From Halopiger aswanensis (GTDB lineage: Archaea; Halobacteriota; Halobacteria; Halobacteriales; Natrialbaceae): a stretch of 64,000 nt of DNA. The notes beneath the pieces were generated by a model. It worked only from the letters and a program-made list of their open reading frames with translations. It did no database searches and was not told the origin of the DNA. The stretch is taken from the NCBI RefSeq assembly GCF_003610195.1, contig NZ_RAPO01000001.1:1364001-1428000 (forward strand), in the 5' to 3' direction. Positions 4,661-38,594 of the stretch are shown here, in pieces (position 1 is the stretch's first letter; the number at the start of each line of letters is the position of its first letter). The position numbers were made by a program, and so were the translations under genes.

Positions 4661-5314
4661 CTATCCGGGACCGAAGGCCGCGATATCGGCGCCTACCGTC
4701 GCCAGCGCGTCCGCGGGATTCGGGTCGCTGTCGGTCAAATGCGTGTACCGGTGGTCCGGAACGCTCGAGAGCGCCGCCGCAACGGCCTCGCTGTACGTGT
4801 CGACGCCCGACTCGGTCGGCTCCTCGCCACCCCAGACGTCCCGGATGACCGTCATCGAGTCGATACGCACCTCGAGCGTTCGCGGCTCGTAGCGAGTCAA
4901 CAGCTCGGCGAGTCCGAGCTGGAGGGCGACGTACTCGGCGGTGTTGTTCCCCGTTCGGGAGCCGACGGGTCGACCGAGGCGGGCGAGTTCGTCCCCCGCA
5001 GCGTCCACGATGACGGCGCCGGCACCCGCGGGACCGGGGTTACCGCGCGAACTGCCGTCGACGTAGAGGACGAAGCTGTCGCCCGTCGGCTCGGGGACGG
5101 ACGGGCGGGCGAGCCCCGAGTCCAGCAGGCGCTCGAGCGCGCGGCGCAACTCGGCCGAGTCGGTCGCGGGATCGAACAGGCCGCCGTAGCCGGGGACCGC
5201 GTCGTCGATGGCGTCGGTGGCGGCCGCCACCTCGTAGCCGACGCCCGCGAGTACCTCGTCGACGAGCGCGGCGAGCGGCGAGAGGTGTTCGGACGGGAGT
5301 CGGTCGTCGGTCAC
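4661..5314 (-). CDS. rnhA: Ribonuclease HI
   Basis: 217 residues. The C-terminal 150 form an RNase H fold with the four acidic catalytic positions visible: VLYVDGSSRGNPG (Asp), NNTAEYVALQLGL (Glu), RIDSM (Asp) and NPADALA (Asp). It hydrolyses RNA in RNA/DNA hybrids. About 70 N-terminal residues ahead of the fold are helical and acidic, as in other haloarchaeal RNase HI proteins. The frame is open for 61 more codons upstream, but the GTG at 5314 (TDDRLPSEHLSPL) is chosen because the extension is Arg/Pro-rich and unlike a haloarchaeal protein. Confidence 0.9.
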   Translation of the reverse strand: MTDDRLPSEHLSPLAALVDEVLAGVGYEVAAATDAIDDAVPGYGGLFDPATDSAELRRALERLLDSGLARPSVPEPTGDSFVLYVDGSSRGNPGPAGAGAVIVDAAGDELARLGRPVGSRTGNNTAEYVALQLGLAELLTRYEPRTLEVRIDSMTVIRDVWGGEEPTESGVDTYSEAVAAALSSVPDHRYTHLTDSDPNPADALATVGADIAAFGPG

Positions 5315-5623
5315 GCTACCGCCCCCGTGGGACCTCGGTTTCGGGCTCGCACACCCTCTCTTTCGGGCGATCTCGTTCGCTGGTCGCACCGCTGCATAGT
5401 GGTCCTCGGTGCTCGAGCGGGAAATCGCTTCAGGTGGCGCCGGTGGCAGGCCGTGTCGAACCGGTCGTCGCCTCGTGACCGTAGGTAACTGACACAAACG
5501 GCTGCCGCATCCGGAGAGAATCAGCGTGGGAAAGCAGGTTCCGACGTCTCCCCCGGTGAAACGGGAGAACGACCGGTCCTTTGCAGGCCGTGGCGATTCC
5601 CGTCTCTAGACTCAACACCGACC
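5315..5623. other. Intergenic stretch with no recognised feature
   Basis: 309 bases between the divergent starts of RNase HI and the small membrane protein. Both promoters must lie here. I see no clear tRNA, repeat or conserved small gene. Confidence 0.4.
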
Positions 5624-5794
5624 ATGGCCGGATTACTCCAACGAACGGCACGGGCGATCGACGATATGTGGCGCTCGATCTGGCACGAGTCGAGTCGCGC
5701 CGAGAAAATCGTGATCGCCGTTTTGCTTCTCGTCACCGGTCTGGCCATCCCGGTCCTCCCGATCGTCTGGATCGCCCGACTTATCGCCAACTGA
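5624..5794 (+). CDS. Small single-span membrane protein (56 aa)
   Basis: Starts MAGLLQRTARAIDDMWRSIW. A basic/amphipathic N-terminus of about 28 residues precedes one strongly hydrophobic helix (EKIVIAVLLLVTGLAIPVLP, then IVWIARLIAN). Codon use is that of the surrounding genes (third positions mostly G/C). The ATG is preceded by ACCGACC without an obvious Shine-Dalgarno. I do not recognise the family. It sits alone between RNase HI and ValS, and could be a small membrane-associated regulator or subunit. That it is a gene is inferred from the coherent hydrophobic segment and codon use. Confidence 0.6.
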   Translation: MAGLLQRTARAIDDMWRSIWHESSRAEKIVIAVLLLVTGLAIPVLPIVWIARLIAN

Positions 5795-5868
5795 TCGACG
5801 AGTCAGCAGACGAGAGACACGCTCTGTTACTGCAAAGGAGCGCGAAACGAACGAAAATGTGAGTGTTT

Positions 5869-5923
5869 AGTCCTCGAGTCGGCTCTCGAGTCCGTTCAGT
5901 CCTCGAGTCGCATCCCGATCGGA

Positions 5924-5936
<13 letters not shown>
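5869..5936. repeat. Triplicated 13-mer at the 3' end of valS
   Basis: AGTCCTCGAGTCG occurs at 5869-5881 and 5898-5910. A third partial copy, AGTCCTCGAGG at 5926-5936, covers the last codons of valS. It looks like local duplication of the gene's end. Confidence 0.5.
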
Positions 5937-8611
<2,675 letters not shown>

Positions 8612-25380: not shown

Positions 25381-25405
25381 TATAAGGATTAGGTCGACCT
25401 AATCC
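25381..25405 (+). promoter_or_regulatory. Iron-type operator 1 abutting a TATA box
   Basis: TATAAG (25381-25386) runs into the perfect 20-bp palindrome GGATTAGGTCGACCTAATCC (25386-25405). The ATG at 25412 is 26-31 bases after the TATA, so the palindrome lies between TATA and transcription start, where a bound repressor would block initiation. The TTAGG-N4-CCTAA core resembles operators of archaeal DtxR-family metal regulators (Idr/SirR type); this is inferred from shape. Confidence 0.75.
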
Positions 25406-25411
25406 GCGCGT

Positions 25412-25513
25412 ATGGAACGGAGACGGCGCGAGACGTCCGGAGGACGCGCCGCGCTCGAGGGGGACGGCGGTCGAGCGACCGGCGCACTCGATCGACGGGG
25501 GGCGACGGCGTGA
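25412..25513 (+). CDS. Possible leader peptide or remnant ahead of the GMC dehydrogenase (33 aa)
   Basis: The first ATG after operator 1 opens MERRRRETSGGRAALEGDGG and ends with TGA overlapping the GMC gene's GTG start (GTGA). The position fits a leaderless start with translational coupling to the dehydrogenase. The sequence is very basic and Gly/Arg-rich, unlike haloarchaeal proteins, so it may be untranslated leader or a scar of a lost gamma-subunit start. Confidence 0.3.
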   Translation: MERRRRETSGGRAALEGDGGRATGALDRRGATA

Positions 25514-27144
25514 GTATCGACAGATCCCCCGCGGAGAGCGCCGCCCCGGTCGACGACGACGTCGACCGAACGCCGGTCTCGGGTGCCGACGTCTGTATCA
25601 TCGGCGCGGGACCGGCCGGCGGACTCGTCGCCGATCGACTCGCCGACGCGGGCCGCGAAGTCGTCGTGCTCGAGGCCGGCCCGCGGTTCGACCCGGAAGA
25701 TCGGCTCGCGCGCCAAGAGCGGGCGATCAGACCGGCCTACGACCGACCGGACGTCTGGGACGGCGAGCCCGAACGGGACGCGCACGCGGCGTCGGGCGAC
25801 TGGTTCTACCCGCTGAATCACGCCCGCGTGAAGGGCGTCGGCGGCTCGACGCTCCACTGGCAGGGGATGGTGATGCGGCTCCACGAGGACGACTTCAACT
25901 CGAAGAGCGCTCGCGGGGTCGGCGTCGACTGGCCGATCGACTACGAGGATTTGCGGCCTTACTACGCCGAGGCCGAGCGCGAACTCGGCGTCGCCGGCGC
26001 CAGCGACAACCCGTTCGCGCCGCCCCGCGAAGAACCGCATCCGATGCCGGCGTTCGAGCCCTCCTACAGCGACTCGCTGTTCGCCGAGGCCTGCGAGGAG
26101 GTGGGGATCGCGATGCACTCGGTGCCGAACGCGCGCAACTCGGAGGCCTACGACGACCGCAACGCCTGCGTCGGCTACGGCACCTGCCAACCGGTCTGTC
26201 CCGCCGGCGCGAAGTACGACGCGACGGTCCACGTCGAGCGCGCCGAGTCGAAGGGGGCGACGGTGATCGACCGCGCGCCCGTCCAGCGCTTAGAGCACGG
26301 CCCCGACCGGATCGAGGCGGCCGTCTACGCGACGCCGGAGGACGAGCAGCACCGGCAGGAGGCCGACGCCTTCGTCATCGCCTGCGGCGGCGTCGAGACG
26401 CCGCGCCTGCTCTTGCTCTCGGAATCGAGCCACTACCCCGACGGCCTCGCGAACTCGAGCGGCCTCGTCGGGAAGTTCTTCATGGACCACCTCTTCGCCG
26501 GCACGGGCGGCGTCCTCGACGAACGGACCCGGCAGAACCACGTCGGCTTCCTCACCAGCGAGTCCCACCAGTTCTACGACGAGGCCGACGCGGAGCAGGC
26601 GCCGTTCAAACTCGAGTTCTTCAACTACGACGGGCCCTCGCCCGTCGAGTCGGCTCTGACCGGCGACGACTGGGGCGACGACCTCCTCGAGCGCCTGCGC
26701 AGCGAGTACGGCAACCACATCGGCATGGGCGCGCTGGTCGAGCAACTCCCCCGCGAGGACAGCTACGTCGGCCTCGACCGGTCGACGACCGACGACCGCG
26801 GCAATCCGGTGCCGGACGTCCACTGGAACGTCGGCGATCGGGCTCTAGAGACCATCGAGCGGGTCAACGAGATTCAGGAGCGGGTTCTCGAGGAACTGGG
26901 CGCCGAGATCACCTGGCAGGTCGGCCCCGACAACACGGGTCCGGCCTACCACCACATGGGCACGACGCGGATGGGGAACGACCCCGCGGAGAGCGTGGTG
27001 AACGCCCGCCTGCGGACCCACGACCTCGCAAACTGCTGGATCGCCTCGAGCAGCGTTTTCCCGACCGCCGGCGCGATGAACCCGACGCTGACGATCGCGG
27101 CGCTGGCGCTGAAGACGGCCGATCACGTCCACGAGGACCTGTAA
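25510..27144 (+). CDS. GMC-family FAD-dependent sugar/alcohol dehydrogenase, large subunit
   Basis: 544 residues, GTG start. FAD Rossmann motif is VCIIGAGPAGGLVADRLADA, followed by VVVLEAGPRF. KGVGGSTLHWQGMVMRLHED is the GMC signature region. The Cys motif CVGYGTCQPVCPAGAKYDA is characteristic of the gluconate/fructose/glucose dehydrogenase branch. The C-terminal GMC domain is YHHMGTTRMGNDP with AMNPTLTIAALALKTADHV. This branch normally works with a small Tat-bearing gamma subunit that carries it across the membrane; that partner is encoded here at 29708-30253. It passes electrons to a respiratory acceptor; sugar substrate unknown. Transcribed from operator 1. Confidence 0.88.
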   Translation: MSIDRSPAESAAPVDDDVDRTPVSGADVCIIGAGPAGGLVADRLADAGREVVVLEAGPRFDPEDRLARQERAIRPAYDRPDVWDGEPERDAHAASGDWFYPLNHARVKGVGGSTLHWQGMVMRLHEDDFNSKSARGVGVDWPIDYEDLRPYYAEAERELGVAGASDNPFAPPREEPHPMPAFEPSYSDSLFAEACEEVGIAMHSVPNARNSEAYDDRNACVGYGTCQPVCPAGAKYDATVHVERAESKGATVIDRAPVQRLEHGPDRIEAAVYATPEDEQHRQEADAFVIACGGVETPRLLLLSESSHYPDGLANSSGLVGKFFMDHLFAGTGGVLDERTRQNHVGFLTSESHQFYDEADAEQAPFKLEFFNYDGPSPVESALTGDDWGDDLLERLRSEYGNHIGMGALVEQLPREDSYVGLDRSTTDDRGNPVPDVHWNVGDRALETIERVNEIQERVLEELGAEITWQVGPDNTGPAYHHMGTTRMGNDPAESVVNARLRTHDLANCWIASSSVFPTAGAMNPTLTIAALALKTADHVHEDL

Positions 27145-27158
27145 CCTGTGCAACCGTA

Positions 27159-27184
27159 TTTTAGGCATACCTAAAAGTATAAAT
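27159..27184 (+). promoter_or_regulatory. Iron-type operator 2 next to TATA of the GT2 gene
   Basis: TTTTAGGCATACCTAAAA (27159-27176, arms of seven) is followed at once by GTATAAAT (27177-27184), a good TATA box 24-31 bases before the ATG at 27208. Here the palindrome covers the BRE/upstream side of TATA. GGTGGTGAG at 27191-27199 is a plausible ribosome-binding site. Confidence 0.75.
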
Positions 27185-27207: not shown

Positions 27208-27948
27208 ATGAGTAGTGGGGATCAGACCGAACTGGAGGCGAGCGGCGAGACCGACGACCGATGCGACCGCGAGTACACCTTCGAGGACGTCAGCGTCGTC
27301 ATGGGGACCTACAACGAGGAGGAAGCGATCGGCACGGTGCTCTCGGACATCGAGGACGTAACCGACGGCAAGGCCGAAGTCGTCTGCGTCGACGGCTCCT
27401 CGGACCGGACGCCCGAGATCGCCCGCGAGCACGGCGCGACGGTCATCGAGCAGCGCCCGCAGGGGTACGGCGTCGCCGTCCGCGCGGCGATCTTAGAGCC
27501 CGACCGACCGATCGTCGTCACGACCGACTGCGACGACACCTACCCGATGGAGCAGCTCCCGGAGTTCCTCGAGCTGATCAACGAGGGGTACGACGTCGTC
27601 AGCGGCGACCGGCTCTACCACGGCGCGGACGCGATGCCGACGTTCAACCGCTTCGGTAACCACGCCTTCGCCGCCATCGCCAGCGTCCTGATGGGCACCC
27701 GCGTTCACGACACGACGACCGGGATGCGGGCCTACCGCCGCGACGTCGTCGAGTCCATCGAGTGGACCGAAAACACGGGCCTCTCGGCCGAGTTGCTGAT
27801 CCGGCCGCTGATGCGCGGCTACGACGTCCGCGAGCACCCGATCGAGTACCGCGAACGCGCCGGCGAGACGAAGCTCGACCCGATTCAGGGCGGCGCCGAG
27901 ATCGCGAAATCGATCGTCAAGGTCTGTCTCGAGGAACGGTTCCGCTAA
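27208..27948 (+). CDS. GT2-family glycosyltransferase (dolichyl-phosphate sugar synthase-like)
   Basis: 246 residues. The GT-A fold begins SVVMGTYNEEEAIGTVL; CVDGSSDRTPEIAREHGA and TTDCDDTYPMEQL supply the nucleotide- and metal-binding Asp residues, and FGNHAFAAIASVLMGTRVHD with TTGMRAYRRDVVE is the acceptor loop typical of Dol-P-mannose/glucose synthases and AglJ-like proteins. No C-terminal membrane helices, so a cytoplasmic enzyme acting at the membrane face. It likely charges a polyprenyl phosphate with a sugar for the ArnT-like enzyme nearby (inference). Controlled by operator 2. Confidence 0.88.
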   Translation: MSSGDQTELEASGETDDRCDREYTFEDVSVVMGTYNEEEAIGTVLSDIEDVTDGKAEVVCVDGSSDRTPEIAREHGATVIEQRPQGYGVAVRAAILEPDRPIVVTTDCDDTYPMEQLPEFLELINEGYDVVSGDRLYHGADAMPTFNRFGNHAFAAIASVLMGTRVHDTTTGMRAYRRDVVESIEWTENTGLSAELLIRPLMRGYDVREHPIEYRERAGETKLDPIQGGAEIAKSIVKVCLEERFR

Positions 27949-28569: not shown

Positions 28570-29616
28570 TTAGGATTCCACGCTCTGCGTGAGGACGAAC
28601 ACCAACAGCGCCATCAGCAGCGAGCCGAGCAGCGTCTCGACGCTCGCGATGGCCCGCGCCCACTGGCCGACCGGCTGGATGTCGCCGTAGCCGAGCGTCG
28701 CGAAGGTGACGACGCTGAAGTAGAGACTTTTGAGGAACGCCCGGACGAGGACGCGACCGGGCGTGTCGGCGGGGTCCTCGATCGCGTACGTGACCGCGCT
28801 GTCGGTTCCGACCTCCTGGACGCCGCCCGTCAGCGGGTACAACCCGGCACAGACGACGATCAGTACCAGCGAAGTTGCGACGACGCGCCACGGGCTGGTG
28901 CCGTAGTGCATGATCCACCGCGAGCCCGCGAGTTTGATCGCCCGCAGGTAGGCGCCGGTCCGCCAGGCGTGGCGGCGCCGGAAGTCCTTCTCGCGGAGAT
29001 AGTACGCGTGGACGCGCTCGGGAAACGCGTTCTCGTCGTAGACGCGCTGCAGTTCCCGGTACACCCACTGCACGGAGTCCGCCCTGGCCGTGACGTCGTT
29101 CCCCGACGCCGCGTCGAATTCGTCCTCGTAGACGGTTCGGTCGCCGAACGCGGTCTCGAGGTTGAGCCGGACGTCGGTCAGACCCGCGCGGTAGAGCCGG
29201 GCGTCCCGAAAGTCGGCGCCGCGGAGGTCCGCGAAGACGAACGACGCGTCGTGGAGATTGGCCCCGCGGAAGGAGGTGCCGTGGGCGTCGACGTCTCGAA
29301 ACGTGGCGCGGCGGAGGTCGGTTTCGGAGAGGTCGGCGCCGTCCAGTACCGCGTCCGTGAAATCGGCTTCGACGAGCGAGCAGCCGGCGAGAAACGAGGT
29401 GTCGCTCAGCGTCGCCTCGCGGAAGTTCGCGCCGTCGAGGCGCTCGTCCGCGGCCGGCACGTGCTCCTCGTAGGCCGGCGTCGGGACGACGGTTTCGGTG
29501 TGCCAGAGACAGCGGTCGCCGTCGCGCCAGGTCGGGCGGTAGCAACAGACCGCGCCGGCGTCGTTGACGCCGCTGCTGGTCGTGACGTGTCCGCATCGGT
29601 CCGTCGGCGGAGTCAT
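28570..29616 (-). CDS. Pentapeptide-repeat protein fused to a two-helix ion channel
   Basis: 348 residues. A Cys/His-rich N-terminus (CGHV, CCYRP, RCLWH) is followed by pentapeptide repeats of the A(D/N)LxG type at about 58-150 (LDGANFREATLSDTSFLAGC and onward), a charged linker, then helix ATSLVLIVVCAGLYPL, pore loop SVVTFATLGYGDIQPVG with the potassium-selectivity signature TLGYGD, and helix LLGSLLMALLVFVLTQS. It should form a tetrameric potassium channel with a beta-helical cytoplasmic prism. ATG 29616 is chosen because the upstream frame overlaps the next gene antisense-like. 91 bases after the gamma-subunit gene, same strand. Confidence 0.88.
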   Translation of the reverse strand: MTPPTDRCGHVTTSSGVNDAGAVCCYRPTWRDGDRCLWHTETVVPTPAYEEHVPAADERLDGANFREATLSDTSFLAGCSLVEADFTDAVLDGADLSETDLRRATFRDVDAHGTSFRGANLHDASFVFADLRGADFRDARLYRAGLTDVRLNLETAFGDRTVYEDEFDAASGNDVTARADSVQWVYRELQRVYDENAFPERVHAYYLREKDFRRRHAWRTGAYLRAIKLAGSRWIMHYGTSPWRVVATSLVLIVVCAGLYPLTGGVQEVGTDSAVTYAIEDPADTPGRVLVRAFLKSLYFSVVTFATLGYGDIQPVGQWARAIASVETLLGSLLMALLVFVLTQSVES

Positions 29617-29707: not shown

Positions 29708-30253
29708 TCACTCCGACGGTCCGGGCGGCCCGCGACGGTAACTCTCGGTCCCGCCCGGGTGGCCCTGCGGATTCTCGAGGCCGACCAGTTCGCCGCCGGT
29801 CGGCGACGCGTACAGCGCGAACAGGAGTTCGTTGACGACGTAGTAGCGGACCCGCTCGACGGAGCCGCCGTCGGGCTCCGACGAGACCGCGTCCGCGCCC
29901 ATCCGCCGCAGCGCATCGTCGCGGGCGTCCGGGGAAAGCGACGCGAACGAGTCGTCGTACCAGGCGTCGGCGTAGTCGTCGAGGTACGCGACGACGTCGG
30001 CGACCGCGTCGGCCCAGTCCTCGTCGGCGGCCGCGCGGCCGCCGACGTACGACTCGACGAACTCCCGAACGCCGTCGACGGCCGACGGGTACAGCACCTC
30101 GGCGGCGGCGACCATCGTCTCGAGGTCGTCGTCCGCGAGGCCGCGGTCCGACTCCGATGAATCGGACGACGAGAGCGCGAAGGCGCCGGCGCCCGCGATA
30201 CCGGCGGCGCCGAGCGCCGCGACCGCGTCCCGTCGCGTGAGTTCCATGGGCAT
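29708..30253 (-). CDS. Gluconate 2-dehydrogenase subunit 3-like gamma subunit (Tat signal)
   Basis: 181 residues. A twin-arginine signal sits at the start (ELTRRDAVAALGAAGIAGAG). The body has the helical pattern of the gluconate/fructose dehydrogenase small subunit: MVAAAEVLYPSAVDG, then VREFVESYVGG and YYVVNELLFALYASPTGGEL ending NPQGHPGGTESYRRGPPG. The family escorts the signal-less GMC subunit through the Tat pore. ATG 30253 or 30247 may start it. It begins 18 bases after the ArnT-like gene on the same strand, so it is probably the last gene of the iron ABC operon, while its likely GMC partner lies 3 kb away on the other strand. Confidence 0.85.
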   Translation of the reverse strand: MPMELTRRDAVAALGAAGIAGAGAFALSSSDSSESDRGLADDDLETMVAAAEVLYPSAVDGVREFVESYVGGRAAADEDWADAVADVVAYLDDYADAWYDDSFASLSPDARDDALRRMGADAVSSEPDGGSVERVRYYVVNELLFALYASPTGGELVGLENPQGHPGGTESYRRGPPGPSE

Positions 30254-30271: not shown

Positions 30272-32347
30272 TTAGTCGTTGGTTGGTTCGGTGCTGTCGG
30301 TCTCGTCGTCCTCGAGCGCGACGAGCTCGGTCTGTACGTCGACGCCGGTGTCGCCGGGCGATTCGGTCGGGATGTACGCCGCTTCGCCGCCGCAGTCGCG
30401 GATCGCGGTGCACCGTTCGACGCGGGGCGTCAGCGCGTCGACGGTGTCGCCGGTCGTGCGGACCGGGAGCTCGAACCGGTAGCTGAAACTGCTCCCGGGG
30501 CCGCGGTCGACGAACACGGTCAGGGTGACGTCCTCCCGGTCGGCGACCGGGAGCGAGGCGTCGACGTCCCCGCCCGTCCCCTGGACGCGGACGGTGTCGT
30601 CGGTGACTGTCACCCGGAGGCTCGTCGGCCCGGAGGCGTTCGAGGCGACGGCCGTGTCGCTGCCGTTGGCCGCGGTGACGGTTACGGTGGCCCCCGACGC
30701 CGCGTCGGGAACTGCGACGGTCGCGTTCAACCGCACCGCGTCGCCGGCGACGTGGTCGACCGGCTGCAGCCGCGACGCGTGGGGCGAGCCGGCCTGGGGC
30801 GACCACGCGCCGCGGTAGGCGAACCGGTACAGCGATCGGTCGGGGTAGGTGTCCGCGACGGCGAACGGCCGCTCGTCGAGGGCGTACACCCGCTGCCCGT
30901 CGAAGTCGGGATCGTTCCGGAACGGCTGGAACGGATGGTTGAGCCAGTCGCCGTACGGCGTCGGGAGGAAGACGACCGACCGATCATCCGGCGCGTCCTC
31001 GAGCGGGTCGTAGACCCGGTCGTAGGTATCAGTCACGGCGGCGTTGCGGTCGACCTTCTCGTCGAAGGTCACCGCCGTCACGCCGCCGACGGCGAGGGCG
31101 CTCACGAGTAGCGCTACAACGAGCGTCGCGCGGGCGACCCGCGGCGTCAGCCGCCGGTCGGCCGTCCGCCGAAGGCCGCGACCCAGCGCCAGCGCGCCGA
31201 CGGCGCCGAAGGCCGCGAACGGCACCAATAGGTCGAAGTGGTAGTACGGGCCGTGGGTCGCGATCAACCCGTCGCCGGCGACCTCGAGGGCGCCGAGGAT
31301 GTTGAAGTTGCCCCAGAAGAAGACGTTGCCGACGACGACGCTCGGGGCGACGGCGGCGAGGACGGCCTGCCGAGGTGAGAGCCCGCGTCGGACAGTCGCG
31401 GCGAACCCGACCGCGGCGGCCGCCGCGCCGAGGAAGCCGCCCGCGATCCACTCGGTCGCGAACGACCGCAGGACCAGGGCGTTCGAGCGCAGCGCCAACT
31501 CGACGGTGTAGTCGGCCTCGTGGCCGAGAATCTCCCGGTGGCCGAACCCGGGTCCGTCGAGCGGGGCGAACGCCTGGTAGGGGAACACCAGCGGCGAGCC
31601 GGTCACGACGGCGTTGTAGGAAAGCGCGAGCGCGACCCCCGCAAGTCCGAGCGCCGCCGTCGCGAGTTGTCGGGGCAGCGCCGCTCGAGGATCGCGCCGG
31701 ATGGTCCAGCAGGCGTGGAGGATAAAGGGCGCGGCGAACAGGACGGCGGTGTAGGGGCGCGCGAAGAAGGCTAGGCCGATGGCCGCGCCGGCGCCGGCGG
31801 CCCAACGGCTATCGTCCGTCCGGTCGGCCCGGAAGTAACTGTAGGCGAAGGCCAAGTTGAGCATCGTCGTCGGAGCATACGGAAGGAACATCGCCGTGTC
31901 GAGCAGGAACAGCGGCGAACAGAGCACGGCGACGGCGGCCGCGATACCGGTTCGCCGGTCGAACGCCTCCCGGACGACCAGCGCCACCAGCGCGAGGATC
32001 GCGGCGGCGATCGCGGGCAGCGCGATCCGGTAGCTCCAGACCAGTTCGCCGAGCGCGAAGATCGCCGCGGGGACGGGCGCGTACTTCGGATAGAGCCGGT
32101 CGCCGTCCTCGACGAAGAACCACGGGCGGAAGACGCCCTCGACGGGCGGCTCGAGGAAGAGTTGGCCGTCCAGCACCATCGCCGCCTGCTGGAGGTAGAC
32201 CCCCTCGTCGTGGTTGAGCGAGTGGTACTGGAAGGTGCGGGTCGCGAGCAACCAGACGGCGACGGCACCGACGAGGGCGACGACGGCGACCGCGGCGTAC
32301 CAGGTTCGGCGTCTTAGATCGTTTCGACTCGAGTCGGCGCCGATCAT
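30272..32347 (-). CDS. ArnT/PMT-like membrane glycosyltransferase (DUF7846 type)
   Basis: 691 residues. About ten helices begin with TWYAAVAVVALVGAVAVWLL. FQYHSLNHDEGVYLQQAAM carries the Asp-Glu pair in the first external loop that is catalytic in the GT-C/PMT superfamily. FFVEDGDRLYPKYAPVPAAI and RTDDSRWAAGAGAAIGLAFF follow. The last 280 residues are an extracytoplasmic beta-rich domain (GATVTVTAANGSDTAVASN). It would move sugar from a polyprenyl phosphate to an external acceptor. ATG 32347 overlaps the permease stop by four bases (ATGA), so the 217-codon upstream extension is rejected. Confidence 0.82.
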   Translation of the reverse strand: MIGADSSRNDLRRRTWYAAVAVVALVGAVAVWLLATRTFQYHSLNHDEGVYLQQAAMVLDGQLFLEPPVEGVFRPWFFVEDGDRLYPKYAPVPAAIFALGELVWSYRIALPAIAAAILALVALVVREAFDRRTGIAAAVAVLCSPLFLLDTAMFLPYAPTTMLNLAFAYSYFRADRTDDSRWAAGAGAAIGLAFFARPYTAVLFAAPFILHACWTIRRDPRAALPRQLATAALGLAGVALALSYNAVVTGSPLVFPYQAFAPLDGPGFGHREILGHEADYTVELALRSNALVLRSFATEWIAGGFLGAAAAAVGFAATVRRGLSPRQAVLAAVAPSVVVGNVFFWGNFNILGALEVAGDGLIATHGPYYHFDLLVPFAAFGAVGALALGRGLRRTADRRLTPRVARATLVVALLVSALAVGGVTAVTFDEKVDRNAAVTDTYDRVYDPLEDAPDDRSVVFLPTPYGDWLNHPFQPFRNDPDFDGQRVYALDERPFAVADTYPDRSLYRFAYRGAWSPQAGSPHASRLQPVDHVAGDAVRLNATVAVPDAASGATVTVTAANGSDTAVASNASGPTSLRVTVTDDTVRVQGTGGDVDASLPVADREDVTLTVFVDRGPGSSFSYRFELPVRTTGDTVDALTPRVERCTAIRDCGGEAAYIPTESPGDTGVDVQTELVALEDDETDSTEPTND

Positions 32348-33954
32348 CGCCCCTCCTGTGCCAGCATGACGGCCATCGACAGGCCGGAGATGACGACCAG
32401 TACGAGCGCCGGCACCGCAGCCTGCCCGTACAGGCCGGCCTCCTCGACCCGCCAGATGAAGGTGACGAGCGTTTCGAATCCGAGCGGGCGCAACATCAGC
32501 GTCGCGGGCAGTTCCTTCATCGTCGTGAGGAAAACGAGCGCGGCGCCGGTCACCACTCCCGGAAGGATCAGGGGCAGCGTCACCGAGCGGAACGTGTTCA
32601 GTCGCGAGCGCCCGAGCGTGCGCGCCGCTTCTACGAGCCGCCGGTCCACCTGCAGGGTCGACGTTCGAATCGAGCCGATCGCCTGGGGCATAAAGCGGAC
32701 GACGTAGGCGAACACCAGCAGCGGCACGGTCTTGTAGATCGCCGGCAGCACGTCGAGGGTGAAACTCAACAGCGCGATCGCCAGCACGATCCCGGGCGTC
32801 GCGTAGCCGACGTACGGCGCGCGATCGGCCAGCGCCGCCAGCCTCGAGTCCGACGTCGCCGAGCCGATCGCGATCGGCAGGGCGACCAGTACCGACGCGA
32901 TCGCGGCCAGCAGGGCGACGTACGCCGAGTTGAAGCCGTACTCCCAGTCGAAGGTGAGCCGACCGACCTGGTAGCCGGGGCCGCCCGTGACCAGCCACAG
33001 CCCGAAGATGGCGATCGGCAGGGCGATCGCCAACAGAGCGATCGCCGCCGGCAACGCCAGCGCCGCGTACCGCCAGCGACCGAGTTCGAGGTCGGCGGTG
33101 CCGCGGTGGCCGCTGCTCTCGTAGGCGCCGGACTCGTCGACGCCGATGCGCGACTCGAGGGCGAGGACGATCGCCGTCACGGTCAGCAACTGGAGCGACA
33201 GCAAGGCGGCGTAGTCGCGGGCGAAGGCGTTGTACCGGGCGTAGATGAACTGCGTGAACACCTCGACGCGCATGATGTTGGGCGTCCCGAAGTCGGCCAG
33301 CGCGTACAGCGCCACGAGCAAGGCGCCGGCGGTGATGCCGGGCAGGATCTGGGGCAGCGTGACCCGCCGGAACGCCTCCCAGCGGCCGGCGTTGAGCGTT
33401 CGGGCGGCCTCGACGAGCGAGCCGTCGAGCGAGAGCAGCGAGGCCCGCGTCGTGAGGAAGACGTAGGGGTAGGTATAGAGCGTCAGTACGAACGCCGCGC
33501 CGGCGAACCCGTAGATCGAAGGCACCGACTCGACGCCGAGCGGCGCCAGCAGGTCGGCGAACTCGCCGTTCGGGCCGAACGCCGAAACGAACGCGAACGC
33601 CCCGAGATAGCTCGGTACCGCGAGCGGGAGCGCGGCGAGGACGGTCCAGAAGCGCGGAAACGGGATCGACCCCTGCACCGTCAACAGCGCGAGCGGGACG
33701 CCGATGAGGATGCTCGCACCGGTGACGACCGCCACGAGCGCGACGCTGCGAACCAGCACCTCGAGGGTCTGGGGCGCCACGGCGAGCTCGAGCGCGCGGC
33801 TCCCGAGCGCGGCGGCGTCGAAGACGAGCCAGACGAGCGGGAGTACGAGGACGGCGGCGAGAGCCGCGGCGAGCAGCGTCAGGCCGACGCCGGCGGCGTC
33901 GTCGCCGTCGGCGGCCCGCTCGAGCGTCCGCGAAAGCCGCTTCCGGAGGGTCAT
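32344..33954 (-). CDS. Iron-type ABC transporter permease (FbpB-like)
   Basis: 536 residues with two binding-protein-dependent transport domains fused, about twelve helices. The two EAA loops are seen: EAARTLNAGRWEAFRRVTLP and EAARTLGRSRLNTFRSVTLP, each followed by ILPG. The duplicated layout is that of FbpB/SfuB and ThiP permeases. It overlaps the binding-protein gene by four bases upstream and the ArnT-like gene by four bases downstream. The matching ATP-binding subunit is missing from the window. Iron as substrate comes from the adjacent binding protein and operator. Confidence 0.9.
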   Translation of the reverse strand: MTLRKRLSRTLERAADGDDAAGVGLTLLAAALAAVLVLPLVWLVFDAAALGSRALELAVAPQTLEVLVRSVALVAVVTGASILIGVPLALLTVQGSIPFPRFWTVLAALPLAVPSYLGAFAFVSAFGPNGEFADLLAPLGVESVPSIYGFAGAAFVLTLYTYPYVFLTTRASLLSLDGSLVEAARTLNAGRWEAFRRVTLPQILPGITAGALLVALYALADFGTPNIMRVEVFTQFIYARYNAFARDYAALLSLQLLTVTAIVLALESRIGVDESGAYESSGHRGTADLELGRWRYAALALPAAIALLAIALPIAIFGLWLVTGGPGYQVGRLTFDWEYGFNSAYVALLAAIASVLVALPIAIGSATSDSRLAALADRAPYVGYATPGIVLAIALLSFTLDVLPAIYKTVPLLVFAYVVRFMPQAIGSIRTSTLQVDRRLVEAARTLGRSRLNTFRSVTLPLILPGVVTGAALVFLTTMKELPATLMLRPLGFETLVTFIWRVEEAGLYGQAAVPALVLVVISGLSMAVMLAQEGR

Positions 33955-35117
33955 CCCGAGACGCCGGCGTCCTCCATCAGCTCGAGGGTCGGCTCGAGAT
34001 CGGACAGTTCCGCGAGGTCGATCTCCGGCGGATTCAGGTCGGCGATCGACGGGAGACCGCCGACGGGATCGACGCCCTCGATCATCGGGTAGGCGAAACT
34101 GACCGTCGTGAAGTACTCCTGGGCCTCCGCGGACAGCAGGTGGCGGACGAAGTTGTCGACGAGGTCACCCCGTTGGGTGCCCTGGACCTTCAGCGCGCCG
34201 GCGACGTTGACCAGCGCGCCGGCGTCGCCTTCGGTGAAGGCAAGATCGATCGGCGCGTCGGGCTGTTGGTTCTTGACGCGCATCGCGTAGTAGTGGTTGG
34301 CGAACCCGGCCGCGAGCGATCCGTTGGCGACGTTCTGCGAGACGGCGTACTCGTTGCCGTACCGTTCGGTGCCGGCGTCGCGCATGTCGACCAGCCACTG
34401 GCGCGTCGCGTCCTCGCCCTGGATCAACCGCATGGCGGTCACGAACGACTTGAACGCGCCGTAGGTCGGCGCCCAGCCCATCGTTCCCTGCAGCGCGTCG
34501 GTTCCGGGGAACTCCTGGACGGTATCGGGGATATCCGACTCGCTCAACTCCTCGGTGTTGTACGGGACCGCACGGGCGCGCCCGGCGACGCCCGCCCAGG
34601 CGTTGTCGTCGCCGACGAACTGGTCGTTGGCGACCGATCCGACTGCCTCGTCCGACAGCGGCTCGTAGGCGTCGTTGTCCGCGACGAACCCCAGCGAACT
34701 GGCGTCGATCGACCAGAACACGTCGGCCTGTGCGGCGCCGGAGTCGACCTCCTCGACGATCGTCTGGGCCAGCGACGCGGAGCTGTCGTCGTTGGGATAG
34801 ACCTCGAAATCGGGGTAGATCTCCTGGAGCATGTTCACGAACTCGTAGTAGATGCCGCCCTCCCCGCCGCCGATGTAGAGCGAGAGTTCGCCGGAGAGGT
34901 CGGGAAGCTCCTCGATCGACGTCCCGCCCGGGGCGGGGCGGCCCTCTGCCAGCGCTCCGGAGCCGCGGAACGTCGAGAGTTCCGGAATCTCGGCGTTCTG
35001 GCCGCCGTCGCCGCCGAACATTCCCAAACATCCCGCCATCGAGGCCGCGCCGAGCGCAGATCCGATCTGTAGCGCTTTTCGGCGCGAAACCGCGTCGTAT
35101 TCACTGTCGTCTTCCAT
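33951..35117 (-). CDS. Iron(III)-type ABC substrate-binding lipoprotein
   Basis: 388 residues. Tat-lipoprotein signal: SRRKALQIGSALGAASMAGC, with lipobox Cys at about residue 29. The mature protein has the FbpA/Fut fold: GELSLYIGGGEGGIYYEFVN, SAQ-type loop ADVFWSIDASSLGFVA, WAGVAGRARAVPYNTEEL and FANHYYAMRVKNQ, where the Tyr pair matches the iron-coordinating tyrosines of FbpA. It delivers ferric iron to the permease. Thiamine is a less likely alternative for this transporter class. It is the first gene of the operon; operator 3 lies 7 bases before its ATG. Confidence 0.88.
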   Translation of the reverse strand: MEDDSEYDAVSRRKALQIGSALGAASMAGCLGMFGGDGGQNAEIPELSTFRGSGALAEGRPAPGGTSIEELPDLSGELSLYIGGGEGGIYYEFVNMLQEIYPDFEVYPNDDSSASLAQTIVEEVDSGAAQADVFWSIDASSLGFVADNDAYEPLSDEAVGSVANDQFVGDDNAWAGVAGRARAVPYNTEELSESDIPDTVQEFPGTDALQGTMGWAPTYGAFKSFVTAMRLIQGEDATRQWLVDMRDAGTERYGNEYAVSQNVANGSLAAGFANHYYAMRVKNQQPDAPIDLAFTEGDAGALVNVAGALKVQGTQRGDLVDNFVRHLLSAEAQEYFTTVSFAYPMIEGVDPVGGLPSIADLNPPEIDLAELSDLEPTLELMEDAGVSG

Positions 35118-35123
35118 ATTCGA

Positions 35124-35147
35124 TTTAGGCCTACCTAAAAACTTATA
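35124..35147 (-). promoter_or_regulatory. Iron-type operator 3 of the iron ABC operon
   Basis: TTTAGGCCTACCTAAA (35124-35139) sits between a TATA-like CTATAAG (35141-35147 on the minus strand) and the ATG at 35117. The order TATA-palindrome-ATG is the same as at operator 1, so repression by blocking initiation is expected. Transcripts would be nearly leaderless. Confidence 0.78.
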
Positions 35148-35155
35148 GGTGACGA

Positions 35156-36328
35156 TTAACGGTTGGCAGCGATCCGAACGGATTCGTTATCGGCCGTCGA
35201 CAGCGCCGACAGACACTCGAGCCAGTCGAGCATGTGTTCGCCGACGTAGTTGAAGAAAGCCCCGTTATTGTAGTCCGACCAGTCGCCGTCGACGAGTTCG
35301 CGGGCCATCGCCTCGAAGACGTCGGCGTAGGAGTCGGCGTCTTCGCCCGCGTCGTCGATGACCCGCCAGAGGTGCTCGTTCAACTCGAGCCCCGGGACCT
35401 CGTTGTTGAGGTCGTCGAAGGTGCTGCGCGGCGCCTTGTTGTGTTCACAGAGCGGCGCGCCGTTGTAGATGCGCTTGCCGAGCACGTCGCAGGCGCGCTT
35501 CAAGAAGACGCCCGACCAGATGTCGTCGAAGCGGCCGACGTCCCACTCGTTGTCGTCCATCGGAAGCTGGTAGAACGCGGGGATCACCTCGCGGCGGAAG
35601 GCGAGGTTCATCGAGCAGACGGTGAGGTAGTTGCCGCGCGCGGCGACGAAGTCCTCGCCGAAGTCGTCTGCCGTCGTACGCGTCTGAGCCTGCCCCTCGA
35701 GGTCGCCGTCCATCAGGATCCGGACGGCGTCGAGGTCGGGCACGTTGGTCCACAGCCCCTGCGAGGCGACGACCTCTCCGCCTTCGATTGCGGTCGTGTC
35801 CGTCTCGACGGTCTCGCCCATCGCCGAGTAGGGATACCCCCGCGGGTAGAGGCCGTGCTCGTCGGCGTTCTGGTAGAGGACGTTGACCCACTGCTCGTCG
35901 GAGGAGACTGCCTCGATCTCGCCCTCGAACGCGAGGTTCTCCATGTGCGTCCCGAAGAAGTCCTCCTCGGGGTGTGGAAGGGTGTCGTCGTCGATGAAGA
36001 AGCCGTACTCGAACTCGTCGTTGGCCCACATGTACAGCAGGCCGAAGCTCGTCTCGGCGTGGCTGGCCGCCGGAACGACGTGGCCGTACTCCTCGATTCC
36101 GTGTTCGGCGTACCACTCCTCGCGCCGAGAGCCGTCGAAGACCTCGCCGGAGACGCCCTCCTCCTCGAGCATCCGTTCCATCGCGTCGGTCTCGCAGAAG
36201 TCCTCGGTGACGAGCACGACGTGGAGCCGCGAGAGGTCGAACCCGTGTTCGCGCGCGTTCTCGAAGTACGATCGCATGCACTCGTACTCCCGGATCGTCG
36301 GCACGACGACGCAGATGTCCTGACTCAT
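35156..36328 (-). CDS. GT75 / reversibly glycosylated polypeptide-like protein
   Basis: 390 residues, soluble. It begins ICVVVPTIREYECMRSYFEN, holds FFIDDDTLPHPEEDFFG (the DDD metal-binding motif), then SSDEQWVNVLYQNADEHGLY, RGNYLTVCSMNLAFRREVIP and FDDIWSGVFLKRACD. These are the landmarks of plant reversibly glycosylated polypeptides/UDP-arabinopyranose mutases (GT75, often labelled alpha-1,4-glucan-protein synthase). The plant enzymes interconvert ring forms of UDP-arabinose and glycosylate themselves. In archaea the role is unknown; supplying an unusual UDP-sugar for surface glycans is my inference. Operator 4 precedes it by 11 bases. Confidence 0.8.
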   Translation of the reverse strand: MSQDICVVVPTIREYECMRSYFENAREHGFDLSRLHVVLVTEDFCETDAMERMLEEEGVSGEVFDGSRREEWYAEHGIEEYGHVVPAASHAETSFGLLYMWANDEFEYGFFIDDDTLPHPEEDFFGTHMENLAFEGEIEAVSSDEQWVNVLYQNADEHGLYPRGYPYSAMGETVETDTTAIEGGEVVASQGLWTNVPDLDAVRILMDGDLEGQAQTRTTADDFGEDFVAARGNYLTVCSMNLAFRREVIPAFYQLPMDDNEWDVGRFDDIWSGVFLKRACDVLGKRIYNGAPLCEHNKAPRSTFDDLNNEVPGLELNEHLWRVIDDAGEDADSYADVFEAMARELVDGDWSDYNNGAFFNYVGEHMLDWLECLSALSTADNESVRIAANR

Positions 36329-36338
36329 TGTCCTTCAG

Positions 36339-36358
36339 TTTTTAGGCTCGCCTAAAAA
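36339..36358 (-). promoter_or_regulatory. Iron-type operator 4 of the GT75 gene
   Basis: TTTTTAGGCTCGCCTAAAAA is a perfect-armed inverted repeat (arms of eight). It lies 11-30 bases before the GT75 ATG, at the TATA position. It also overlaps the stop codon (36352-36354) of the upstream membrane-protein gene, so operator and coding end share bases. Confidence 0.78.
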
Positions 36359-37536
36359 GTCCGTCGGTCCTCGCTCGAGACCGAGCGGTCGTCGGTGGCC
36401 GCGTCGACGGCGGTCGCGTCCGTCGCGTCGGCGAACGACACCCCGAATCCGGCGACCGCCGCGCCGCCTCCGACCAGCGTGACGCCGTTTTTCAGCGCGT
36501 GGTCGACGACCGCGGCCGCAAGCGCCGTGCTCGCGCCGACCGGCGTGAGGCCGACGACCAGCGCCGTGAAGGCGGCCTCGTAGAGGCCGACGCCGCCCTG
36601 CGAGAGCGGCAGGACCTTCGCGAGGTTGCCGACGCTGACCGCGAGCGTGCCGACGGCCAGCAGCGGGCCGACGGCGAGGCCGCTGTCCAGCGCCGCGAGG
36701 ACGACGACGGCCGTGAGCACGTCGAGCGTCCAGACGAGCAGGCTGGTTCCGGCGACGGCGGCCAGCACCCGCGGGCGGCGCGCGACGACGCCGACATCGC
36801 CCGCAAAGCGGAGCGCTGCCTCGAGCGCCCCCTCGAGCCGCGGCGAGCCGGCAACGAGCGCCCGCAACCGCGCGGCGACTCGCGCGCTGTAATCCGAGCG
36901 GGCGCTCGTCGCGACGGCGAGGCCGACCCCGACGGTAGCCGTACTCACCGCGGCCGCGCCGGCGAACGCGACCCGTGCGCCGCCAGTCTCGGCGGCGAGC
37001 TCGAGCGGGCCGACGCCGCCGCCGATCGCGAGCCACGCCGTCGCACCCCCGGCCAGCACGGCGATCGCTGCCAGATCGAAGAGCCGCTCGACGGCCAGCG
37101 CGGCGAACCCCGCGGTGTAGGGGACGTTCGCTCGAGCGTTGACGACGTACGCGCGAGTCGCGTCGCCCGCCCGTGCCGGAATCGCGAGGTTGGCCGTCTG
37201 GCTGACGAAGACGGCCGCCGTGAGCAGTCCCGTGCCGGCGCGGTGGCCCGTCGCGCTCAGGACGTCCCCGTACCGGCGCCCGCGAATCGGCCACGAGACG
37301 GCGTAGACGGCGACCGCGAGGGCGAGCAGCCGCGGATCGGCGCTCGCGGCGTCGGCGACGACCGCCTCGAGGTCGAGTTGCCGGGCCGCGACGACGAGCC
37401 CGAGAGCGACGAGAAGCGTGCCGGCGAGCGTCAGCCGGCGGCGAGTCAGCGCGGCTCGGATGCCGCCGTCGCCGTCGACACCTATCGACCGCTCATCCGG
37501 CGCTTGCGACTCCCCCCGGTCGCCGCCGTCGTGCAT
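36352..37536 (-). CDS. AglD-like lysylphosphatidylglycerol synthase-TM family protein
   Basis: 394 residues, about eight helices: LTLAGTLLVALGLVVAARQL, LLALAVAVYAVSWPIRGRRY, TANLAIPARAGDATRAYVVN, AVERLFDLAAIAVLAGGATA, LLVWTLDVLTAVVVLAALDS, and VGNLAKVLPLSQGGVGLYEA with AVVDHALKNGVTLVGGG. PARAGDATRAY and PLSQGGVGLYEAAFTAL are the two conserved blocks of the LPG_synthase_TM (UPF0104) family. Haloferax AglD of this family takes part in adding the final sugar of the N-glycan, perhaps as a dolichol-sugar translocator. ATG 37536 is used; the open frame to 38097 is antisense to the epimerase gene. Confidence 0.88.
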   Translation of the reverse strand: MHDGGDRGESQAPDERSIGVDGDGGIRAALTRRRLTLAGTLLVALGLVVAARQLDLEAVVADAASADPRLLALAVAVYAVSWPIRGRRYGDVLSATGHRAGTGLLTAAVFVSQTANLAIPARAGDATRAYVVNARANVPYTAGFAALAVERLFDLAAIAVLAGGATAWLAIGGGVGPLELAAETGGARVAFAGAAAVSTATVGVGLAVATSARSDYSARVAARLRALVAGSPRLEGALEAALRFAGDVGVVARRPRVLAAVAGTSLLVWTLDVLTAVVVLAALDSGLAVGPLLAVGTLAVSVGNLAKVLPLSQGGVGLYEAAFTALVVGLTPVGASTALAAAVVDHALKNGVTLVGGGAAVAGFGVSFADATDATAVDAATDDRSVSSEDRRTF

Positions 37537-37560: not shown

Positions 37561-37577
37561 TTTAAGCCCACCTAAAA
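37561..37577 (-). promoter_or_regulatory. Degenerate iron-type operator 5
   Basis: On the minus strand TTTTAGG-TGGG-CTTAAA, one arm intact and the other altered by one base (CTTAA for CCTAA). TTAAATAT (37559-37566) overlaps it and serves as a plausible TATA box 23-30 bases before the ATG at 37536. Position and half-site support it; the mismatch lowers confidence. Confidence 0.55.
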
Positions 37578-37652: not shown

Positions 37653-38594
37653 TCAGCGCTCGTTGTACTCGTCGAGAATCTCCCGCGTCGCTCGCCGTAC
37701 CGCCTCGTCGCTCGAGCGTTCGGGCTCCCAGCCCAGCGCCGCGAGCTTCTCGATCGAGAGGCGCATCTTCGGCACGTCGCCGGTCCAACCGCGCTCGCCG
37801 CCGGTGTACTCGAAGTCGGGCTCTACGCCCATCTCGTCGGCGACGATGGCCGCGATGCGGTCGACCGACGTGGTCGTGCGCGTACCGAGGTTGTAGGTGT
37901 TCATCGCGGCGTCGGCGTGCTCGATCACGTGCAGCATGGCGTCCAGACAGTCCTCGACGTGGAGGTAGGACTTCTCCTGGCGGCCGTTGCCGAGGATCGT
38001 CAGCGTGTCGGGATCCGCCCGCAGTTTCTCGACGAAGTCCGGAATCACCGCGCCGCGCAGGCGCGGGCCGACGACGTTGGCGAAGCGGAAGTTCCACACC
38101 GTCAGGTCGTGGCTGTGCGTGCGCGCAGAGAGTAATCCCTCGTCCGCTAACTTGCTCGCGCCGTAGGCGCTGATCGGCTCGAGCGGCGCGAAGTCCTCGG
38201 GCGTCGGCCGCGGCGCCTCGCCGTAGACCGTCGAGGAGGAGGTGTAGGCGATATCCGTGACGTCCGCCTCGGCCATCGCCTCGAGGAGCGTGCGAGTCAT
38301 CCGCGTGTTGGCCTCGAACTGGCCGTGCGGGCGATCCGTGTCGACGTGTTTCGACGCCGCAAGGTGGAAGACGCGGTCGACGGTCTCGAGGTGGTCCGCG
38401 AGCGCGTCAGCCGAGATCGACGTCAAGTCGGCCTCGACGAGTTCGGCGTCGTCGGGGACGCGCTCGGCGGCGCCGTTCGAGAGGTCGTCTACGATCGTTA
38501 CGTCGGCGCCGTCCGCGAGCAGCCGCTCCGTGAGGTGCGAGCCGATGAACCCGGCGCCGCCCGTGACAAAGACGTGGCCGTCTACCCCGGTCAT
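37653..38594 (-). CDS. NAD-dependent NDP-sugar epimerase/dehydratase (extended SDR)
   Basis: 313 residues. NAD motif VTGGAGFIGSHLTERLL at about 10-26, DDLSNGAAERV, active site SSSTVYGEAPRPTP and Tyr-x3-Lys in SAYGASKLADEGLL, then NVVGPRLRGAVIPDFVEKL and the substrate loop GNGRQEKSYLHVEDCLDAML. This is the GalE/WbpP-like group that makes UDP-sugars for glycan assembly. No iron-type box lies before it, so it may be constitutive. It is the last gene of the glycan group, 116 bases upstream of the AglD-like gene on the same strand. Confidence 0.9.
   Translation of the reverse strand: MTGVDGHVFVTGGAGFIGSHLTERLLADGADVTIVDDLSNGAAERVPDDAELVEADLTSISADALADHLETVDRVFHLAASKHVDTDRPHGQFEANTRMTRTLLEAMAEADVTDIAYTSSSTVYGEAPRPTPEDFAPLEPISAYGASKLADEGLLSARTHSHDLTVWNFRFANVVGPRLRGAVIPDFVEKLRADPDTLTILGNGRQEKSYLHVEDCLDAMLHVIEHADAAMNTYNLGTRTTTSVDRIAAIVADEMGVEPDFEYTGGERGWTGDVPKMRLSIEKLAALGWEPERSSDEAVRRATREILDEYNER

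Follow-up and report, generated by a model that had tools for sequence, protein, structure and literature searches.

The bacterial ferric importers FbpABC, SfuABC and HitABC are the closest described counterparts of a locus that we analyzed in a 64,000-nucleotide stretch of the Halopiger aswanensis genome (hereafter, the window). The locus is like them in the FbpA fold with its Tyr-Tyr pair, the fused two-domain permease and the FbpC-type TOBE ATPase, whereas here the ATPase is assigned to a gene in trans with its own operator, a GT-C glycosyltransferase lies in the operon, and the binding protein is an archaeal lipoprotein. With the shared ATPases of the MsmK type it has in common an ATPase gene that lies apart from the permeases and is present also without this cassette; it differs from them in belonging to an iron regulon, in being haloarchaeal, and in the strict alternation of this ATPase with an in-operon copy.

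AglS acts in haloarchaeal dolichol-phosphate glycosylation. AglD and UPF0104 proteins belong to the same process (PMC5898192). Glycosylation of the AglD/AglS type resembles the locus in its dolichyl-phosphate hexose synthase, UPF0104 flippase-like protein and GT-C enzyme, but here each unit bears an iron-type operator and is linked to FbpA. The haloarchaeal DtxR-family iron regulators include Idr, SirR and FerR (PMC11349517), and the regulons of this family are like the one described below in that a palindromic operator precedes genes for siderophore-binding proteins and one of the DtxR family. From the comparisons that follow, the locus very probably encodes an FbpA–FbpB ferric importer that works with an orphan FbpC in trans and lies within a dolichol-linked glycosylation module under iron control.

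Operon layout and the ferric-binding protein

The ORF coordinates and the sequence place the genes for the binding protein (SBP), the permease (PERM), the glycosyltransferase (GT) and a Gluconate_2-dh3 subunit (G2DH3) in this order in one minus-strand operon (Table 1). SBP and PERM overlap by four bases (ATGA, 33951–33954), as do PERM and GT (ATGA, 32344–32347), and 18 bases separate GT from G2DH3. No ATPase ORF was found inside the operon or adjoining it in the ORF list or with Pfam. This gene order, with its overlaps, its gap and its missing ATPase, agrees in full with what an earlier note had read from the sequence. Scanning the window for Rfam families and tRNAs gave no matches. Downstream of the operon, a pentapeptide-repeat protein fused to an Ion_trans_2 channel is encoded at 28570–29616 of the window (minus strand) and is conserved in many relatives.

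Table 1 Features of the locus, with positions counted from the first base of the window.
Feature	Position	Strand	Basis or remark
FbpA-type ferric-binding lipoprotein (SBP)	33951..35117	-	PDB profile, Foldseek, invariant residues
FbpB-type fused permease (PERM)	32344..33954	-	Pfam PF00528, 2 stretches
GT-C membrane glycosyltransferase (GT; PMT_2 + DUF7846)	30272..32347	-	start ATG; Pfam, fold, invariant residues
Gluconate_2-dh3 (gamma) subunit (G2DH3)	29708..30253	-	Pfam PF13618, layouts of relatives
Reversibly glycosylated polypeptide / UDP-sugar mutase-like (RGP)	35156..36328	-	Pfam PF03214
LPG_synthase_TM (UPF0104) flippase-like membrane protein (LPG)	36352..37536	-	Pfam PF03706; start chosen from upstream sequence
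NAD-dependent sugar epimerase, syntenic	37653..38594	-	
Dolichyl-phosphate hexose transferase	27208..27948	+	NF041391 above cut-off, E 1.5e-126
GMC oxidoreductase (GMC)	25510..27144	+	Pfam
Operator TTTAGGCCTACCTAAA of the SBP operon	35124..35139	.	between TATAAG and ATG
Operator TTTAGGCTCGCCTAAA upstream of RGP	36341..36356	.	
Operator upstream of LPG	37561..37576	.	1 mismatch, the same mismatch kept in relatives
Operator TTTAGGCATACCTAAA upstream of the dolichyl-phosphate hexosyltransferase	27160..27175	.	
Fifth operator ATTAGGTCGACCTAAT upstream of GMC	25388..25403	.	degenerate

A chance arrangement is excluded because the SBP-PERM-GT order was found again in 20 close relatives and SBP followed by GT in nearly all of 69 named haloarchaeal RGP loci. 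The earlier note had taken a glycosyltransferase in a transporter operon for a rarity; in haloarchaea, however, this operon has a GT as a rule. Nor does the GT occupy the place of FbpC, as the note also proposed: the commonest layout outside the family is SBP-PERM-ATPase-GT, and this order in relatives rules out a replacement of FbpC by the GT. A standard FbpABC operon holds its ATPase in the same operon and the window operon holds none; we therefore do not file it as a standard FbpABC operon, but take the FbpA-, FbpB- and FbpC-type parts as ones that would work like FbpABC.

The best PDB match of a profile of 30 SBP homologues was VmFbpA (E 1.8e-79), and the top matches were ferric-binding proteins only (VmFbpA, TtFbpA, HitA and FbpA); the Pfam family is SBP_bac_6. 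The predicted structure (pLDDT 87.6) matched VmFbpA (7w3w) in Foldseek with an E value of 5.3e-29 and a TM score (target) of 0.94. Invariant in the 30 homologues are R12 and R13 of the Tat signal, C30 of the lipobox and the residues N274 H275 Y276 Y277, and Y276 and Y277 align with the Tyr-Tyr iron ligands of solved FbpA. By sequence and predicted fold the SBP is a true FbpA, and the profile matches, the predicted structure and the invariant Tyr-Tyr pair together support Fe(III) as the predicted substrate of the SBP and the importer. The PERM consists of two BPD_transp_1 halves with both EAA loops present, as read by eye.

Operators and the ATPase encoded in trans

The operator TTTAGGNNNNCCTAAA is a palindrome that we take to resemble a DtxR box. 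Four operators occur in the window at ≤1 mismatch, compared with 0.00 expected from 100 shuffles, and the genome has 41 forward matches versus 12 for the reversed control when up to two mismatches are allowed. Elsewhere in the genome the operators precede, among others, nine Peripla_BP_2 siderophore-binding proteins, a Fe_dep_repress regulator and a hemerythrin. Since they stand before siderophore-binding and DtxR-type repressor genes, the operator set, judged by sequence, is the mark of a DtxR-type iron regulon, with the identity of the repressor presumed.

Three operator copies (3066, 3740 and 3776) flank a DtxR-family repressor gene (L162, 3158–3568, minus strand), which is a candidate for the self-regulated master of the regulon. 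Operators also stand directly before the genes of two further regulon members, a DUF5059/plastocyanin-like protein (L155, 3050–4611) and a ScdA_N-hemerythrin protein (L173, 3065–3873).

The earlier note had considered that the permease borrows an ATPase from elsewhere, and a search for an orphan FbpC-like ATPase with the same operator yielded such a gene. The genome encodes 12 TOBE_2 ATPases, 11 of which lie no more than about 6 kb from BPD permeases, and only one lacks a permease within 100 kb (G000:C2:1094702-1095886, on another contig; L083, 6703–7890). This ATPase is intact (Walker A, LSGGQ and TOBE domain), its gene stands alone among unrelated neighbors, and the operator TTTTAGGAGTGCCTAAA lies just upstream (L083, 6653–6670). 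The contrary case named in the note, an FbpC elsewhere that is encoded with its own permease, was not found, no permease being near the orphan.

Where relatives have an ATPase in the operon, between PERM and GT, that ATPase is the orphan's best match. The two locations exclude each other: the ATPase is in the operon in 11 and in trans in 49 of the 60 strong-SBP genomes of the family, and in the operon in 11 and in trans in nine of the 20 genomes (17 genera) from outside the family, with no genome having both or neither. Over all 80 FbpA-cassette genomes this amounts to 22 in the operon, 58 in trans, 0 with both and 0 with neither, counts that are non-independent since the genomes are related, the ATPase tree implying about six changes between operon and trans. 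An operator stands in front of every trans ATPase examined, namely 49 in the family, 31 of them from strong-SBP genomes and 18 from genomes without a strong SBP (48 operators perfect), and nine outside it (six perfect, three with one mismatch). The genes flanking the trans ATPase locus are conserved within the family, and one locus (L283) has an in-between state, SBP-PERM-GT and then operator-G2DH3-ATPase.

That the permease uses one of the non-orphan ATPases, as a shared sugar or polyamine type, with the orphan serving something else, seems to us highly improbable. Shared ATPases exist in bacteria, such as MsmK of Anaerocellum bescii (PMC11212667), and 11 candidates are at hand in the genome; however, these have permeases close by, and the relatives' in-operon ATPase and the orphan are orthologues, share the operator and are mutually exclusive. 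Borrowing from elsewhere, in the form of an operator-bearing orphan FbpC, is thus strongly supported by the genome comparisons as the way in which the importer would obtain its ATPase.

The orphan-type ATPase is present also in 57 family genomes without a strong SBP, so it is probably common to other permeases as well. The PERM proteins of the two cassette types described below show 87% versus 56% identity, whereas the trans ATPase varies with the genomes, and a shared ATPase fits this better than a dedicated one; the same orphan accompanies permeases of two different clades and is retained in cassette-less genomes. More distant FbpA-like SBP-PERM operons (L080–L082, SBP at about 5000–6150) have three operators upstream and no ATPase, and their genomes carry the orphan, which may serve these permeases too.

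The glycosyltransferase and its neighboring genes

The GT has an acidic motif in its first outer loop, D47 E48, that is invariant in 27 homologues, and its fold is like those of AglB, ArnT, ALG9 and AftA (Foldseek: AglB 1.7e-07, ArnT 5.1e-07), which by sequence and model places it in the GT-C superfamily. The label "ArnT-like" from the earlier note thus holds at the level of fold but not of sequence family: no ArnT family matched in Pfam or NCBIfam, where the matches were PMT_2, DUF7846 and, weakly, the LA3751 family. No solved relatives were found by sequence.

In all 50 loci checked, the GT directly follows SBP, PERM or ATPase, with gaps of −8 to 93 bases and one of 190, and no operator was seen between SBP and GT, which speaks against an independently transcribed GT. 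In layout C (Halorubrum and several Natrinema) both PERM and the ATPase are gone and the GT still stands behind the SBP. The same two deep clades divide the tree of SBP and that of GT, whereas the trans ATPase tree agrees with the genomes, mixing layouts B and C within one genus. From this we infer that an SBP-(PERM)-GT cassette may have been exchanged around a fixed trans ATPase. One genus (g15) has two SBP-GT cassette types at one site (L044–L062 versus L075 and L076), flanked by highly conserved RGP and hexosyltransferase genes, which suggests cassette exchange of surface genes.

The constant SBP-GT pairing and the congruent trees would also fit a GT that decorates the FbpA lipoprotein itself in an N-glycan step. 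However, N-X-S/T sequons number 0–5 per SBP, are unconserved and are absent in several homologues; by this count, which leaves O-glycosylation aside, FbpA is an unlikely N-glycan target, and we regard its decoration by the GT as improbable.

RGP is present in 306 of the 391 genomes of the class. Compared by hand in the family sample, a strong SBP accompanies RGP in 50/50 RGP-positive genomes and occurs in one of 20 listed RGP-negative ones, and this lone genome (G017) has SBP-PERM-ATPase without the GT. The importer can therefore stand alone, and the module without the importer was not seen in the sample. In 20 loci from other families and in most of the 69 named loci, RGP, SBP and hexosyltransferase are again preceded by operators; in Haloferax the hexosyltransferase sits elsewhere yet keeps its operator with one mismatch. 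No operator was found for the NAD-dependent sugar epimerase of the window.

A rather unlikely reading of these data is that the GT and the glycan genes are syntenic passengers, an importer having entered an old glycosylation cluster, with the GT co-transcribed but sharing no joint function. The flanking RGP and dolichyl-phosphate hexosyltransferase genes could keep the GT in place by synteny, and SBP-PERM-ATPase without a GT or RGP beside it in three family genomes (L065, L066 and L068) indicates an importer that works alone. On the other hand, an iron operator that is conserved across families stands before each of RGP, LPG and hexosyltransferase, and one is present at the Haloferax hexosyltransferase despite its location elsewhere; the shared deep clades of SBP and GT and the retention of the GT with the SBP after loss of PERM and ATPase are against mere synteny.

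We therefore consider co-regulation of the glycan genes with the importer well supported from the operators, and, because these are shared class-wide before glycan genes, the locus by sequence is an iron-regulated ferric importer plus a dolichol-glycosylation module. The linked glycan function that the earlier note had offered stands, though as an addition to the borrowed ATPase and not as an alternative to it.

In Haloferax volcanii, HVO_1859 (UPF0104) and HVO_0655 (GalE) are up 11.6-fold and 12.7-fold, respectively, under iron starvation (PMC11349517). Their identification as orthologues of LPG and of the epimerase is unsupported: the only Haloferax LPG match found lies in a long AglD-fusion-like open frame, and the Haloferax epimerase match has no operator.

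The dehydrogenase subunit, which the note had counted with the importer operon, is to be grouped with GMC, whose gene lies 2.6 kb from it. Relatives have G2DH3 and GMC side by side behind a single operator, with G2DH3 directly before GMC in most, and GMC is likely the catalytic partner of the subunit. In the window, the degenerate GMC operator is followed by ATGGAACGGAGACGG (25388–25430), which is out of frame with GMC and resembles the start of G2DH3 genes. G2DH3 likely moved from before GMC to behind GT, with ATGGAACGGAGACGG as a possible relic; it lies behind GT also in L216 and L283.

Proposed mechanism and its meaning

At low iron, a DtxR-family repressor of presumed identity would release the TTTAGGNNNNCCTAAA operators at the promoter of each unit. 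An SBP-PERM-GT-G2DH3 mRNA, presumably a single transcript, would be made together with that of the distant FbpC, and at the same time RGP, LPG, GMC and the dolichyl-phosphate-hexose gene would be expressed. FbpC dimers would engage the EAA loops of the permease in a putative complex and drive Fe(III) import, and the GT-C enzyme would use the dolichyl-phosphate hexose made by its neighbor, as the presumed donor, to place the sugar onto a putative envelope acceptor.

Given the co-regulation and conservation, glycosylation of an envelope acceptor at iron scarcity is most likely what the module would do. It is possible, though we put this forward tentatively, that it makes a dedicated iron-starvation envelope glycan for ferric capture or protection of the uptake surface, as a class-wide module tied to FbpA in which the SBP-GT cassette is exchanged around the fixed trans ATPase.

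Viewed alone, the operon would lead annotators to label the transporter broken, an apparent incompleteness that the ATPase in trans resolves, and it offers a clear example of an ABC ATPase that leaves or enters an operon yet keeps the same operator. The locus suggests a link between iron starvation and the sugar coating of the cell surface. With a glycosylation module that is predicted to respond to iron and is conserved across haloarchaea, a connection of metal limitation to archaeal surface glycans would be open to direct tests in genetically tractable Haloferax species.
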